A DNA stretch of 64,000 bases from Thysanoteuthis rhombus. Lineage: Eukaryota; Mollusca; Cephalopoda; Oegopsida; Thysanoteuthidae. Shown in pieces: positions 11,100 through 64,000 of this stretch (positions are counted from its first letter, which is position 1; every line of letters begins with the position of its first letter). The stretch is from assembly GCA_963457665.1 (NCBI GenBank), contig OY735218.1, forward strand, positions 46,224,841-46,288,840, read 5' to 3'. The notes under the pieces were generated by a model. It saw only the letters and a list, made by a program, of their open reading frames with translations, did no database searches and was not told the origin of the DNA. The position numbers and the translations under genes were made by a program.

Positions 11100-11729
11100 C
11101 CTGAAGATTCTCTAAACCTCTCTATCTATGGCAACATGGAGCCAATATTCTCTGAACCCATCTAATCGTCACACCATCTTATTTCCAGTTGGTCACATTT
11201 CCTATACGACCTTTGCAGATCTACGTTGTGAGTCATGATGTACAGATGTGGTCTGACATCTTGTCATATGCCCAGCTCATTGCCATTTGATTCTTTTAAT
11301 GGATTCAAATATATAACTGATTCCTGTTTTTCCTCTAATATACTGTCCCGTCTTGTAATCTCCCCATGTGATGTTGGGCATGATTCTCTGATGTTGCATG
11401 GTCCTGAATTTGAGAGTTAACCTTCTGGTTAACTTTCATGTTTCTGCTCCATAGGTGACTATTGGGAGGATGCATTGGTTGTATACCCTTTTCAAAAGGA
11501 CAAATGGGGTTTTCTTGTCTTTGAAGGCTATGTTTGCAGAACCAAAAGCTTGCCAACCTGGTGTGATTCTTTGCTTGATTTCCTCTTTTGAAGATTTCTT
11601 GAGGATTTGTTGTCCTAGATCGATGTAGTGATCTACTTTCTTTATTCTTTGTATTTTTTTGATTTTGATTGTTGAATCTTTGTCTTTAATATTCTTGTTG
11701 TACATGGCATTTGTTTTGCCAAAGATCAT
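11100..11729 (-). pseudogene. LINE reverse transcriptase C-terminal region, broken
   Basis: Frame 11,729-11,436 reads KKVDHYIDLGQQ, ITPGWQAFGSAN and VYNQCILPIVTYGAET, the conserved post-catalytic segment of this LINE family. A frameshift follows, after which NITWGDYKTGQYI and IKRIKWQ can be read, then stops. A degraded DREVWRIF-like segment lies near 11,120. The order of these blocks matches the family, which is strong evidence despite the breaks. Confidence 0.85.
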
Positions 11730-16088: not shown

Positions 16089-16692
16089 GAATGCATACTG
16101 AATATACATCTCTCCAAGCTAAACCTAATCATACTGAGTCGTATAAGGAAATTAAATACAAATCAGCAAACAATTTTGGATATATTAGGTCTATGCAAAA
16201 CCTCTCAGCGTCATTTTTGTACAATGTTAGGATAATCTTGAAAGTGACTTTGGATATATTCAGCTATGCATTGCTTCTATGACGATTTCAGTATTGTGGG
16301 TCATTTACCGACATTAGAGAAATTGAATTCCGAATGAACTGACTGAAAGTAATACAGGTTAACATTTAAAGATCGGATTTTCTTCTTTTTTGCTCAAGGC
16401 AGACATTGATGATGATGAAAGGAAATCTTGGATGGATTTTAGATAGCCTTAGTTTCATTTATGATCTCATCAATATCGATCAATAGCATGAATATACAAT
16501 AAGAAAAAGATATGTATGCCTCGCACAAATTAATCACCATAGCCTACGCATGTATAAGAACTATCTAAAAGAATTATCTAAAATAGTATAAAACAAAGAA
16601 AACTTTCATCTAAAAATCTCACAGATAATACCAGCTCAAGATTTAGGCAATGTTAGTCCAAAATTATAAAAGAAAGTCCGAGAAAGCTATCT

Positions 16693-17190
16693 TTGAGAGA
16701 AAAAGAGATTTTTAGATGGTGCCTAGTTTGTATACTCATGCAATTTTTCAATGCAGTGCTAAAAGATGTGATGACCCTTGGATGGCAAGCCTTTGGCAGT
16801 GCAAGCTCAACCTTCAAATATGAGACGATCCCAATAATCCTAAAAAGAAGGGTGTACAACCAACGCATCCTCCCAATTATCCCTTTTGGAGCTGAAACAT
16901 GGAACTTAAGCAACAGCCAGACCTGCAAAATGAGAAGCATGCAACGTGCACGTGAGAGAATCATACTCAACCTCACATGGAGAGATTACAAGACAGCACA
17001 GTATATCAAGAAGGAAAATGGAGTCCGAGATATCATAAAATCTATTAGAAAACTTAAATGGCAATGGGCTGGCCATGTTGCAAGAATGACAGGTAACTGA
17101 TGGACATCATGACTCACAACTTGTATCCCCAGATATCACATGGGGACCCGAAGCCGACAGAATGGGAAGATGAATTAGACAAATTTAGTA
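16693..17190 (+). pseudogene. LINE reverse transcriptase C-terminal fragment
   Basis: An open reading of about 135 codons (16,693-17,100) contains LGWQAFGSASSTFK, RVYNQRILPI, FGAETWNLS, NLTWRDYKTAQYI and KLKWQWAGHVARMTG, the ordered C-terminal blocks of the RTE/CFDP2-like family. A stop then occurs where the family continues, and frames beyond it read NRWTS and SPDITWGPEADRMGR-like segments. This is the best preserved LINE copy in the window but lacks endonuclease and catalytic domains. The first ~30 codons do not match. It ends within about 10 bp of the hammerhead element. Confidence 0.88.
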
Positions 17191-17195
17191 CTCCC

Positions 17196-17330
17196 GAGGT
17201 AGGATATCGGCTTCCGGGTCTGATGTGAGGGTTTCAATCTTGCCTCGTGGTACTGGAAGGGATAAAGTCTATAGCCACACTGAAGAGATGTAATACGTCG
17301 AAACAGCTGTCTGTGGATGACACAATATAC
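17196..17330 (+). mobile_element. Hammerhead-bearing repeat, copy A
   Basis: The left part (17,203-17,264) shares GGATATC, CGGGTCTGA, GTTTCAATC and CCTCGTGGTACTGGA with copy C at 63,849-63,910. The right part is the hammerhead. GGTTTCAATCT at 17,230-17,240 resembles a tRNA B box. The element sits between a LINE fragment and an (ATCT)n(TA)n array. Confidence 0.7.
17267..17321 (+). ncRNA. Hammerhead ribozyme, type I, intact-looking
   Basis: All invariant core bases are present. Stem I: CCACA (17,275-17,279) pairs perfectly with TGTGG (17,312-17,316). The core CTGAAGA is at 17,280-17,286. Stem II: GATGT (17,287-17,291) pairs over five positions, one of them a G-T wobble, with ACGTC (17,295-17,299), leaving an AAT loop. 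GAA at 17,300-17,302 follows. Stem III is a two-base-pair AC/GT stem with an AGCT loop. The cleavage triplet is GTC at 17,309-17,311. A distal stem I extension, GTC (17,267-17,269) with GAC (17,319-17,321), encloses an internal loop of the sort used for loop-loop contacts. A very short stem III is known from hammerheads of Penelope-like elements and animal retrozymes. Confidence 0.8.
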
Positions 17331-17390
17331 ATATCTATCTATCTATCTATCTATCTATATATCTATATATATATATATATATATATATAA
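17331..17390. repeat. (ATCT)n(TA)n microsatellite
   Basis: Tetranucleotide ATCT repeats pass into a TA run. The array begins about 10 bp after the hammerhead element. Confidence 0.95.
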
Positions 17391-22262: not shown

Positions 22263-22985
22263 CAGCGACCACCAAAATTTGGGAAGGGTCGAAGTCAAAG
22301 GCCACAAAAAGAGGCTAATAGTTTGATATACATGGCCACAAAAAGGGCAGATGATTGAACAGCTATTGCCTGAGAAAAGTGTATATGGTGGAACAGCCAT
22401 GGCTGTAAAAAAAAAGGCAGATGGTTGAACAGCTTTGCCCACAAAGGAGGCGTATAGTTGAACAGCTATGACGAGGAAGAGGGATCGACGATCAAACAGT
22501 CGTGGTCACCGAAAGGCAGATAGTTGAACAATCTTGGTCAGAAAGAGTCGCAAATAGTTGAACAACCACGGCCAGAGTAAGGGGCAGCTCGTTGACTAAC
22601 TGTAGCCACAAAAAAAAAAAAGCCATGGCCAGAGAAATGGGTGGCTTATTGAAAAGCCATTGACAGAATAAAGGTGGATGATTGAATAGCCATTACCATA
22701 AAAGGGGCAGATGGTTGAACAGCCATGGCCTCAAAAGGGGCTGATGTTTGAAGAGATGTGGCTACGAAAAGGTGCGAATAATTGAACAGCCATGGCTAGA
22801 AAAAAGGTCGAGTAGTTGGACAGCCGTGGCAATAAAAATGTGCAAATAGATGAACAACCGTGGCCTCAAAAAAGGGTCAGATGGTTGAACGGCCATGGCC
22901 ACAAAATGAGGAGGATAATTGATCAGCCGCGACCACAAAAAAGCGAATAGTTAAACAGCCGTGGCCACAAAAAGGGTCGGAGTTT
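22263..22985. repeat. ~34-bp minisatellite, about 20 units
   Basis: The unit approximates GGTTGAACAGCCATGGCC followed by ACAAAAAGGGGCAGAT. Recognisable unit starts lie near 22,351, 22,387, 22,422, 22,455, 22,490, 22,524, 22,557, 22,591, 22,648, 22,680, 22,713, 22,746, 22,780, 22,814, 22,848, 22,883, 22,917 and 22,949. Units differ from each other by several bases, so the array is old. CCATGGCC gives many units an NcoI-type palindrome. Confidence 0.9.
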
Positions 22986-30639: not shown

Positions 30640-31190
30640 TTTTATTTCTCCTCATTAGTATTTGGAATAAGGATTGACCAATGAATAACGTACTCCGATA
30701 GTCTTTTGTTGTGCAACGATCACAAATAAAAGTCAAATAAAGAAAAATGTAAGACACATACTAAAGCGAAAAATCACCCTAAGATGGCATACCACAAGAG
30801 AGAATCATGCTCAACCTTACATGGATATGAGGAAGAAAACAGGAGTCAGAGACATCATAGAGTGTATTAGAAAACTAATACGGCAAATGACAGGCCATGT
30901 TGCAAAAATGACAGACAACAGAATCGAACGTTAAAAGAATGATGATGATGATGATGATGAGGGATAAATTTTGCATAATTTACATTGTACATTTAAAATT
31001 CCCGAAAACCTATCCGGGGTAGATAAAAAAAAAATGAAACTTTTTCCCAGACATAATAAGAAGTAAATATAAAATTTGTTGCGTCTTATACACGTGTCAC
31101 ATACGTAGACCGTTATTTAGCTAGCCAACCAGATTCACTTAAAAACTGAAAAAACAAACAAAATGTTGACAGTTCTACTTGACTGCTTTT
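30640..31190 (+). repeat. Dispersed ~480-bp family, copy P3, interrupted
   Basis: Family blocks occur on both sides of an inserted LINE fragment: GACCAATGAATAACGT and TTTTGTTGTGCAACGATCAC at left, ACATAATAAGAAGTAAATAT, ATTCACTTAAAAACTGAA and TGTTGACAGTTCTACTTGAC at right. Confidence 0.65.
30785..30962 (+). mobile_element. LINE 3' fragment with (GAT)n tail, nested
   Basis: The translation near 30,830-30,920 reads RKKTGVRDIIECIRKL and TGHVAKMTDNRIER, the last coding block of the RTE/CFDP2-like LINE, then a stop. Seven GAT triplets follow, to about 30,962. It is nested inside a member of the ~480-bp family, so it inserted later. Confidence 0.8.
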
Positions 31191-45099: not shown

Positions 45100-45754
45100 C
45101 TTCGGGTTTCTTGGTCACATTTTGGGGGCTACATCCTTAGGAAATTGAATGACTGTACCACTAGGCATCAGATAAAACAGTGCTTTTTGGGGTTTCCTTG
45201 GTCATTTGGGACCAACAGAGTTGAAATTTAGTGCAGGTATTTTCTAGATAAACTTAAATAAAAGTTTGTTTTTTAAGATAAATTTGATAAATTCTCAAAA
45301 TGGTTAGTTCTGATACATACGCTACCGTGATTTATTTATGCGGACTACAGATATTTCAAATATTTTTGCTCATCAATTGTTGGGATAAAGTCTTGTATTA
45401 CATACTGAAAGCTGTTACGAGCAACGTTCTCTTATGCATCTGCTGTTCCAACCGTCATGTCGTAAGAGCAATGGTCGATAAAGGAATGGGGCTGTAATGG
45501 GCACAAGCTGCACCATTAAACTTAGGTAAGACACTGACTTTGCGCCCCCCTCATACACTTTTCGTCGTCATCATCTGTTTAGCGTTTACATTACCAGATT
45601 TTTCTATCATGGGTGTCACTGAGCCAAAACTGTCTGGACTTATCTAAGTTATTACGCCATTTTATTCTTTTGCAGGCAACAGTTTCGAATATGATCTCTG
45701 GATATCCACATTGTAAATCGTGATATCCAGCAATTGTCAGACATTCACAAAAAT
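45099..45754. other. AT-rich stretch with no recognised gene
   Basis: Nothing recognised before the LINE scrap that follows. Confidence 0.5.
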
Positions 45755-45860
45755 CATGTTCAGCATCACATGGAGAGATCACAAGACATCACTTTCTATA
45801 AGAAAAAAAAAACCCAGAGATTTCGAAAGAATAATAAAAATTCAAATGGCAATGTGCTTA
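45755..45860 (+). pseudogene. LINE C-terminal scrap
   Basis: The frame reads MFSITWRDHKTSLSIRKK and, after a small disruption, IIKIQMAM, matching the TWRDxK...IRKK...KWQWAG blocks of the LINE at 16.7 kb. About 100 bp survive. Confidence 0.7.
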
Positions 45861-45934
45861 GCATTGTGCAAGACTGGCCTTGTATTTAAATACTCAATTA
45901 TGGAAATTTTATCCAAAATATTTACGTATGCATT

Positions 45935-46369: not shown

Positions 46370-47064
46370 TTCAGCAAAACTATGATTAATTTAGATTTTA
46401 CACCAGCTTCGAAATCACCTAAATATCAAATTAGCCCTACCTGCAAACAAAATCATTGAAATATGGGTACTTATAACGAACTAATGTTCTCTTAACATCA
46501 ACAAGAATGTCTAGAAACAAAATTTCGGCTTACTGATGGGTCCCCTATAAGTGGTGTTGGATTGTCTTTTCCTATAATTTCTTACGTATCATACCTGAAA
46601 CAGTTTCCTATTTTAACTACATTGACAGTGCCTTAATACTATACCTCCATCACGCAGATCTAAACAACTCAGTAACGAAACACAATAGAACCCTCTATCA
46701 GATTCATGCAACAAAAGGGTTCCAATAATCGCTTACCTTTTCTTGACATCTAATTATACAGAACAGTAACATCAAACTACAATCAAGAAAGACCAATTTT
46801 TACCCCCCTCACACCAAAAATGGAATCAGGAATAAGATTCCACCAAAATATGTAGCCCATAATACCCCGGGAGGTAATGAATACATCGAATACAACGTAA
46901 GATGAAAGGCAGATAAAATATTCACGACTAAAAGTGAACAAAATAAAAAAGATACCAGCAGCACGATTAGGAGCATCATATTACACATGGATTCAACCAT
47001 CGTCGACCTCAGCTCCAACCTGAGCTAATTGAATACTGTCACCATCACCTCGACAATCATCAAA

Positions 47065-47102
47065 GCATAAATGCCAGCTCCGGGCAGAGCTGGCATTTAT
47101 GC
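47065..47102. repeat. Perfect 16-bp inverted repeat (hairpin)
   Basis: GCATAAATGCCAGCTC (47,065-47,080) and its exact complement (47,087-47,102) flank the 6-base loop CGGGCA. The right arm encodes the AGIY motif, so the left arm looks like an inverted micro-duplication of it. Confidence 0.9.
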
Positions 47103-47319
47103 AATACAATGCAAGGATTGTGACAAGATCTGCGTAGATGACATCGAGACCTCTCGAAAAAAGAATATTAAAGAACAAAAGAACCTTGAAGTAGACAAAG
47201 AGACGAATTCCCTGTTCGAAAACAGAAACACACAACTTTCAAAAATCCAACCTCATCAAAAATGTACACAACTCCTCGACAAGCAAATGCATCGAGGCAG
47301 CCCTTATATCCGGATGTAA
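47071..47319 (+). pseudogene. GIY-YIG endonuclease remnant of the Penelope-like element
   Basis: The 82-codon reading contains AGIYAIQCKDCDKI (47,089-47,130), corresponding to the GIY...C-x2-C start of the domain. The YIG half is degraded to CVDDIETSRKKNIKEQK where YVGET.RS...RIKEHK is usual. It ends SPYIRM, like the C-terminus of these proteins. Loss of the YIG motif implies an inactive nuclease. The apparent start codon lies inside a hairpin and is not a real start. Confidence 0.75.
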
Positions 47320-54389: not shown

Positions 54390-54890
54390 GGGAATCATTG
54401 TAGGTTCGTATGTTTTGCTGTAGAGTCAGCTCAACTTTCAAAAACAAAGAAAACCAATTATTCCTATAAAAAGGCATAAGACCAACGTATCCTGCCGATA
54501 ATCACCTATAGAGCTGAAACGCAGGACGTGACTAAATGATCAACACACAAACTGAGAATCATGAAAAGTACACTGGAAAGAATCATGACAAGGAGTGATA
54601 CAAGATAGCACAATATATTTAAACTCGGAGTTATCATAGGAACCATCAGAAAACTCAAATGGCAATAGGCTGATCATGTTACAATAATGACTGACAACCG
54701 ATAGATATCATGACTCATAATGTTGATGACCAGACCAAATACGAAACTGGAGCCAACAAAATATGAGATCACATGATAAACTAGACAAGTTCAGAAAGTA
54801 TTGACTCTGCAGCGTCGATGATAGAGAGGTTTGGCGAATGTCTATGTCCAACGATGGATGCTAAAAGTTGGCTGGTGATAGAGACCAAAA
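54390..54890 (+). pseudogene. LINE C-terminal fragment, heavily decayed
   Basis: In shifting frames: SSTFKNKE, ITYRAET-like sequence near 54,505, IRKLKWQ near 54,645, TDNRWIS-like sequence near 54,693, and DDREVWRMSMSNDGC near 54,820. The order matches the C-terminal part of the RTE/CFDP2-like LINE, extending further 3' than the 16.7-kb copy. Every block is broken by stops. No (GAT)n tail is seen. Confidence 0.7.
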
Positions 54891-60699: not shown

Positions 60700-61030
60700 G
60701 TAGAGCCAGCTCCAAATCCAAGAACAAAAAAAAATCATTAATCCTACGAAGAACGGTATACAACCAATCCATCCTCCCAATAATCAAGCATTTATCTGAA
60801 ACATGGAACCTTACCTCAGTTCATAAGCTGAGAACCATACAGTGTGCATTCGAGAGACATCGCAGTATATCAGCAAAAGTCAGGGGTCAGAGATATCATA
60901 GAAATGGTTAAAAAAATCAAATAGCTATGGGTTAACCATGTTGCAATAACATCAGACATACGTTGGGCATCCCAAAAAGTTGATCTCCAGAGTTCAAATG
61001 TAAAAAAAAAAATGTAAAACACGGCCGGCA
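60700..61030 (+). pseudogene. LINE C-terminal fragment, decayed
   Basis: Readable blocks: SSKSKNKKKSLIL (60,706 on), RRTVYNQSILPIIK, ETWNLTSVHKLRTIQCAFER and, after a deletion and frameshift, GVRDIIEMVKKIK. These are the C-terminal blocks in order. It ends without a (GAT)n tail. Confidence 0.75.

Positions 61031-63540: not shown

Positions 63541-63614
<74 letters not shown>
63475..63614. repeat. Long (TA)n microsatellite
   Basis: About 138 bp of TA with four single-base interruptions. It ends 15 bp before hammerhead copy B. Confidence 0.97.
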
Positions 63615-63628
63615 CAGATAGTTTATAG

Positions 63629-63670
63629 CCACACTGAAGAGCTGTAATAAAACGAAACAGCTGTCCGTGG
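63629..63670 (+). ncRNA. Hammerhead ribozyme copy B, decayed
   Basis: Core CTGAAGA (63,634-63,640), GAA (63,654-63,656), the AC-AGCT-GT stem III and C17 (63,665) are intact. Stem II, GCTGT against AAAAC, has two mismatches. Stem I, CCACA against CGTGG, has one, at the position next to the cleavage site. Activity is doubtful. Confidence 0.65.
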
Positions 63671-63927
63671 ATGACACGATAATTAACGCTTCACTTTTCA
63701 GGGTTGAACAATCTCTAAGTGAGGTAACTCGCTCATTGTAAACTTATGCAATAGGATTTGAGCACTCTGGTGAACTAGGAATTTAAACTAAATGAATATA
63801 TCGCTTAAATTCAGCCTTATTGATCGTCCAGTTCCCTAGTGCAGGGGTTGGATATCAGTTTTCGGGTCTGAAGCGAAGGTTTCAATCCAGCCTCGTGGTA
63901 CTGGATGGGATAACAGGTATTCTATAG

Positions 63928-63969
63928 CCACACTGAAGAGTTGTAATACACCGAAACAGCCGTCTGTAG
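63928..63969 (+). ncRNA. Hammerhead ribozyme copy C, slightly decayed
   Basis: Core CTGAAGA (63,933-63,939), GAA (63,953-63,955), stem III AC-AGCC-GT and cleavage C (63,964) are intact. Stem II, GTTGT against ACACC, has one mismatch (a G at the second position would restore pairing). Stem I, CCACA against TGTAG, has one mismatch. It is intermediate in preservation between copies A and B. Confidence 0.7.
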
Positions 63970-64000
63970 ATGACACAATTATTGATTATGATAATCAAAG

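Follow-up and report, generated by a model that had tools for sequence, protein, structure and literature searches.

Does the hammerhead-like motif at 17.2 kb in the 64,000-nt stretch of Thysanoteuthis rhombus DNA analyzed here (hereafter, the window) form a genuine ribozyme and, if so, to what kind of element does it belong? Our reading, which we hold with a probability of roughly 80% on the strength of sequence comparisons, is that the motif is the processing ribozyme, of predicted activity, of a ~300-nt non-coding non-LTR retrozyme propagated through the circular or multimeric RNA described below. The 17.2-kb locus is one fossil copy of this small, very abundant, non-coding retrozyme.

Read directly, the bases, stems, loops, and GTC/GAC segments are, base for base, those listed in the initial annotation. 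Stem I pairs CCACA (17275–17279) with TGTGG (17312–17316), the core reads CTGAAGA (17280–17286) and GAA (17300–17302), stem II pairs GATGT (17287–17291) with ACGTC (17295–17299), including one G-T pair, around an AAT loop, and stem III consists of AC (17303–17304) and GT (17309–17310) around an AGCT loop and is followed by C17311; GTC (17267–17269) and GAC (17319–17321) are present in distal stem I. A conserved catalytic core is therefore combined with three helices and is open at stem I, as in a type I hammerhead. The pattern CTGANGA-N5-35-CGAAAC occurs at three sites in the window, against a mean of 0.14 in shuffled sequence and with none of 100 shuffles reaching three, and among the three hammerheads in the window, only the 17.2-kb copy has all its stems intact (Table 1).

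Table 1. Features of the window that bear on the retrozyme and its surroundings
Feature	Position	Strand	Basis and remarks
Type I hammerhead ribozyme	17267..17321	+	Predicted cleavage after C17311; base reading, Rfam, pattern, comparative pairing
5'-truncated retrozyme copy, subfamily 1	17184..17327	+	Unit position ~226 to the fixed 3' junction; BLAST against a real full unit
Pol III B-box-like stretch GGTTTCAATCT	17230..17240	+	Read against the unit and the box consensus
(ATCT)n/(AT)n tract	17328..17389	+	Directly after the 3' junction
Second retrozyme insertion	63614..63979	+	~1.2 units, two hammerheads
Decayed hammerhead copy	63627..63672	+	21.5 bits; two stem II mismatches, A.C at the stem I base
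Decayed hammerhead copy	63928..63969	+	16.2 bits; one mismatch each in stem II and stem I
Predicted ribozyme-to-ribozyme monomer	63666..63964	+	299 nt, 42% GC
Decayed Penelope-like remnant	46401..47205	+	Separate from the retrozyme

The covariance-model check proposed in the initial annotation gave a divided answer: RF00163 (type I) aligns over its full length to 17273–17318 with 25.4 bits (E = 4.3e-4 in a 351-base scan), but this lies below the gathering score of 34 bits. No Rfam match at gathering score was obtained in the whole window, and none of the scored copies reaches it (25.4 bits at 17.2 kb, the two decayed copies of Table 1, and 23.4 bits for locus L002). The same holds for a scan of 15 genome loci, in which L041, a locus overlapping the window, was the sole one listed and microsatellite miRNA matches swamped the output; the Rfam gathering threshold may thus miss an abundant hammerhead family. 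The sub-threshold score weakens the formal Rfam assignment, not the fold. As an isolated 58-mer, the sequence has a different, non-hammerhead minimum free energy fold (−15.4 kcal/mol, z = −1.58; 14 of 200 shuffles fold as well), and for a 61-mer, the hammerhead fold, calculated without tertiary terms, comes to −8.1 against −15.2 kcal/mol for the best fold, a gap of ~7 kcal/mol. The internal loop TATAG/AT and the loop AAT are conserved in most of the aligned hammerhead rows described below, and a tertiary contact between loops 1 and 2 may form.

What confirms the predicted hammerhead fold as real is mainly comparative: the copies number in the thousands, and stem II shows a compensatory change. 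The genome searched was the window's own (2.73 Gb, 514 contigs). It contains 5,594 exact occurrences of a 32-nt core in either stem II version and 1,554 of a 44-nt core, with no occurrence of the reversed control in either case; an exact-pattern scan of viral contigs, carried out once, gave no matches, and a DNA search with 66 bases, by a method that passes over very common words, also gave none. The 17.2-kb copy itself has 39 scored relatives, 89–93% identical over parts of 17181–17340 (among the 40 best scored of 5,314 candidates, which include the copy itself). We collected 106 hammerhead stretches, excluding L001 and L041, which duplicate window sequence, and short partial matches; after exclusion of 11 with indels, 95 stretches of 61 nt and the window copy gave an alignment of 96 rows, 83 of them distinct. 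Across the distinct rows, 94.4% of the cells agree with the pairing of the structure, compared with 12.9–49.3% for versions slid along the alignment, and each of the 15 pairs is standard in 87–98% of rows. One stem II pair is changed on both sides in 31 of the 83, and at 100 places listed from the whole genome, the same pair is A-U in 52, U-A in 46, and mismatched in 2. On these sequences, there are two subfamilies, set apart by this one compensatory change, which is a single evolutionary event inherited by thousands of copies. Both shuffle measures speak against wider covariation (double-change pairs: 1 observed, 500 of 500 shuffles as high; further pair types: 13 observed, 478 of 500 as high) because only one pair covaries. 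Net divergence between the subfamilies is 3.9% in the hammerhead and 3.4% in the body, a comparison that is uninformative because one of the sets was picked by its exact core.

The hammerheads delimit a short repeated unit. A query with two hammerheads gave at least 43 matches (40 of 9,349 candidates scored), and in the first 71 loci, neighboring hammerheads within one copy lie 287–312 nt apart; other gaps, of 159–1,036 nt (L050, L057, L059, and L067), separate distinct or rearranged copies. Sampled copies carry one to three adjacent hammerheads, with the maximum of three in L055, and no long arrays were seen among them. As expected of an animal non-LTR retrozyme, the unit falls within ~150–450 bp and is bounded by type I hammerheads, occurs as tandem dimers and multimers in the genome, has a GC content below 50%, and is without a coding frame of at least 100 aa. 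The two insertions in the window are 84% identical (17198–17326 against 63846–63979), and the window's list of open reading frames has none of 100 aa or more in either; ten ORFs of the window compared with Pfam gave nothing above cut-off. Because it is truncated and has a single ribozyme, the 17.2-kb copy cannot alone yield a circle. An A-box-like stretch is decayed in this copy (~17189–17199), and in L056, A-box-like (1 mismatch) and B-box-like (2 mismatches) stretches stand 41 nt apart, judged by the box consensus sequences; ARAGORN and Rfam found no tRNA in the element.

These properties, that is, ~300-nt non-coding units, hammerhead-bounded copies, and thousands of dispersed insertions, support a retrozyme rather than a Penelope-like element as the host of the hammerhead. 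The initial annotation had mentioned both kinds of host for a type I hammerhead with a short stem III; the ribozyme class and the retrozyme stand, and the Penelope-like host falls, because the sampled insertions are mostly no longer than about one unit and lack a frame for reverse transcriptase (RT) and GIY-YIG domains. The 3' end of a LINE can likewise be set aside as host: the LINE-like remnant upstream of the retrozyme ends near 17120, a stop common to two further copies in the window, and the retrozyme starts only at ~17184. That remnant (16600–17120) belongs to a repeat family also represented at 11225–11558, 54428–54720, 30798–30922, 45752–45876, and 60736–60949, and its peptide KWQWAGHVARM resembles what we take to be the end of a non-LTR retrotransposon ORF.

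Penelope-like sequences are nonetheless present, and their co-occurrence is what is expected of an animal non-LTR retrozyme. The remnant in Table 1 comprises an RT-like piece (46401–46544; 51% identity, E = 3e-7) and a GIY-YIG-like piece (47074–47205; 45%, E = 2.5e-6), and the latter matches all 150 scored places in the genome (the best 150 of 2,495 candidates); the Penelope-like 3' ends examined were too decayed to align. Such remnants appear to be common in the genome. Elsewhere, the window holds a minisatellite at 22618–22975, with 33–34/68-nt units and copies 68–79% alike. The genome also contains 66 matches to tyrosinase-family domains, many in arrays ~2 kb apart, as hemocyanin genes are laid out in molluscs; one domain of PDB 6r83, presumably the hemocyanin of the squid Todarodes, is matched with 403 bits by a 194-aa piece of this family. 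These arrays point to a mollusc and probably to a squid.

How the copies end hints at how they were made. Among 71 oriented rows (L001–L071 without L041, L018 being counted twice), an alternating AT run of at least 6 nt follows the last match within 20 nt in 62 and precedes the first match within 20 nt in 38. A separate sample of 40 copies was chosen by the 32-nt core alone, half from the A-U version (20 of the 27 listed copies that were absent from the 44-nt list) and half from the U-A version (the first 20 listed); L131 and L143 in it are the same places as L079 and L083. About 31 of the 40 end at GACACAAT(AAT), 15–18 nt past the predicted cut and mostly at simple repeats, the following sequence being AT or, less often, something else. 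Five continue into the next unit (L138, L155, L159, L166, and L170), three stop earlier than this junction (L143, L144, and L157), and L168 enters a CA repeat in which its end cannot be placed. The second hammerheads of L083 (= L143) and L094 are followed by 3' ends that lie not at GACACAAT but 2–3 nt past the predicted cut; these two cases could be ribozyme ends. Target-site duplications scoring at least 10 (at most 1 mismatch, at least 3 G/C) were found in 0 of 67 copies, against 2.4% of shuffled pairings, AT-only duplications being undetectable in AT-rich flanks.

For the 5' ends, we took 52 places (L079–L130) in the order of the 44-nt-core list, passing over C2:45552033 (= L034), and counted 50 copies after dropping L080 and L088, which lie next to N gaps; L122 (rearranged), L091 (with an internal deletion), and L125 (which runs off the sequence examined) were kept. 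Fifteen of the 50 begin at unit positions 59–75, a range defined after viewing the data, which puts their start one unit before their 3' end and abutting it on the circle, and 14 begin at 127–145. Nine extend beyond the one-unit joint (L083, L094, L098, L105, L120, L122, L124, L125, and L130); L124 is also among the 14, and L120, L124, L125, and L130 are seen in part only. The remaining copies are short or scattered. The region at 127–145 overlies the inverted repeat GCTCTTCC...GGAATAGAGC. In an earlier set of 39 copies (L002–L040), 15 of the 5' ends lie at 126–143 and 7 at 59–75. None of the 50 begins at unit 49, the 5' end of the ribozyme, where the chance expectation is only 0.8 in 5 nt. 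It should be noted that three alignments differ by some bases per copy (L085 begins at unit 63, 62, or 37 and L123 at 75 or 62) and that these cases were judged by eye.

The joints between units were followed in 39 hammerhead pairs spaced 270–330 nt apart, from L001–L071 and L079–L130. In 38, the joint is seamless, with no tail between the units (35 by script and L043, L050, and L068 by eye, L050 with a small deletion); in the exception, L079, one insertion lies inside the tail of another and starts near unit 162. Tail-less multimers of this kind need a circular or multimeric template, and a 3' end past the cut means that the template was ligated or uncut there. Together with the AT-rich flanks, the joints point to RNA in circular or multimeric form as the template and to internal initiation at AT-rich DNA, as reported for a Penelope-like element. 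Joints at (AT)4 were also counted genome-wide, giving 136 at the one-unit start, 11 at the ribozyme 5' end, and 69 at an AT-rich site inside the unit, near position 186; in view of these 69, some of the 136 may be due to microhomology or to the growth of local repeats.

In the mechanism that we propose, copies with two or more hammerheads would be transcribed, perhaps from a tRNA-like Pol III promoter within the element, into RNA that exceeds one unit in length and that the hammerheads, probably paired as dimers via the palindromic ACAGCUGU of stem III, would cut into monomers. A host ligase would close the monomers into circles, and the reverse transcriptase of another element would copy the RNA, starting at GACACAAU(AAU), 15–18 nt beyond the site of cleavage and ligation, and at AT-rich target DNA, to leave 3'-anchored, 5'-truncated insertions. 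Dimeric cleavage is plausible without being outright favored by the fold energies: two copies joined through ACAGCUGU give a double hammerhead of −32.9 kcal/mol, against −17.0 for two single hammerheads and −31.2 for two alternative monomers, and the best two-strand fold, at −39.6 kcal/mol, is not the double hammerhead.

The strongest competitor keeps the same retrozyme and differs in the template alone, which would be a multimeric transcript that stays linear and uncleaved, in line with the proposal made for the Anolis Penelope-like element, with the circle as a by-product. We take this seriously without preferring it. In the account of the Anolis element (PMC11167929), hammerhead mutants were without effect on insertion in vitro and unprocessed RNA was called the dominant substrate; a linear template is also compatible with multimers and internal initiation, and the cluster of 5' ends at 127–145 is about as large as that at 59–75. 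A linear template does not, however, predict the latter cluster, one unit upstream, nor the excess of AT joints at the one-unit start over the ribozyme 5' end, the internal AT joints tempering this second point. The coincidence of 5' and 3' ends on the circle favors a circular template, with reservations for microhomology and for the second cluster.

We consider it unlikely that the repeat is an ordinary SINE of tRNA origin, with a linear Pol III RNA ending in a microsatellite tail, LINE-driven target-primed reverse transcription, and a hammerhead that is incidental or trims tails. The common 3' end, the microsatellite, and the 5' truncation do make up the usual SINE/LINE picture, the unit has A-box- and B-box-like stretches, and LINE-like remnants lie in the window. 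Against this stand the seamless joints, the only tail found in a pair belonging to two insertions; the stem II pairing maintained across subfamilies; the lack of an Rfam tRNA match; and the one-unit 5' end, which meets the 3' end at the same point of the circle and, at ~165 nt upstream of the A box, is too distant for a normal Pol III start. That the motif is a chance resemblance without function, as its score under the Rfam cut-off and its preferred alternative fold might suggest, is contradicted by the genome-wide core counts with their empty controls, the full set of core bases, the compensatory subfamily change, and the two further copies in the window, and is highly improbable.

Returning to the circular or multimeric template, we tentatively consider that a Penelope-like enzyme captures the ribozyme-made circle, begins copying at the AC-rich motif 15–18 nt past the ligation site, with priming at (AT)n, and as a rule goes no farther than one lap, halting where it meets its own start. 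Primed copying of the circle has already been proposed, with Penelope-like elements named as a strong candidate (PMC7229834); what is added to the proposal as described there is junction evidence from one family. A review states that the repeats of animal retrozymes have no conserved motif pointing to the mobilizing retrotransposon (PMC7761336). A common 3' junction just past the cut, an AT-rich target, and thousands of copies make the question of the mobilizing element testable, and capture by a Penelope-like enzyme, if true, would show what helps animal retrozymes to move and provide a sequence signature of circRNA-templated insertion.

Among known systems, the Anolis element PAc resembles the retrozyme in its insertion arrangement. 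Its enzyme initiates at an internal site, an AC-rich stem loop located downstream of the hammerhead, and at AT-rich DNA, and in both cases, insertions end shortly past the hammerhead, with AC-rich RNA and AT-rich DNA (PMC11167929). PAc differs in encoding RT and GIY-YIG domains, where the present ~300-nt unit has no long frame, and in distances: its RNA start lies 111–118 bp and its cut 26 bp into the ORF, compared with a distance of 15–18 nt past the cut here (PMC11167929). Plant LTR retrozymes likewise make RNA circles with hammerheads but have type III hammerheads, LTRs, a primer-binding site, and 4-bp duplications (PMC7761336); here the hammerhead is type I, and no LTR-like repeat was noticed beyond the retrozyme unit itself. 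By description, the Schistosoma W-elements are similar as repeated, transcribed, hammerhead-associated invertebrate repeats (PMC8490949), as is the newt satellite hammerhead, whose stem III is also weak and becomes longer on pairing of two hammerheads and for which dimeric cleavage is reported (PMC6155905). In cephalopods, the giant squid genome paper counts 235 "hammerhead 1" ribozymes by Rfam, words that occur once in its text (PMC6962438); titles and the openings of abstracts, among which few subscription journals are covered, yielded no description of a cephalopod retrozyme. The closest likeness is to the non-LTR retrozymes of coral, mussel, and axolotl, with a type I hammerhead, a ~300-nt low-GC non-coding unit, dimers and trimers, and many copies, the circRNAs of animal retrozymes being ~170–400 nt; in axolotl HHR_Amex2, stem III is likewise 2 bp long and carries a tetraloop, and dimeric cleavage is reported in axolotl (PMC7229834). 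The present copies differ in being mostly truncated, dispersed single insertions and in two features that we did not find described there, the shared 3' junction and the (AT)n context (PMC7229834). Measured against known animal retrozymes by description only, their sequences being called species-specific (PMC7229834), the family is new and its class known: that of animal non-LTR retrozymes whose stem III is palindromic and 2 bp long.
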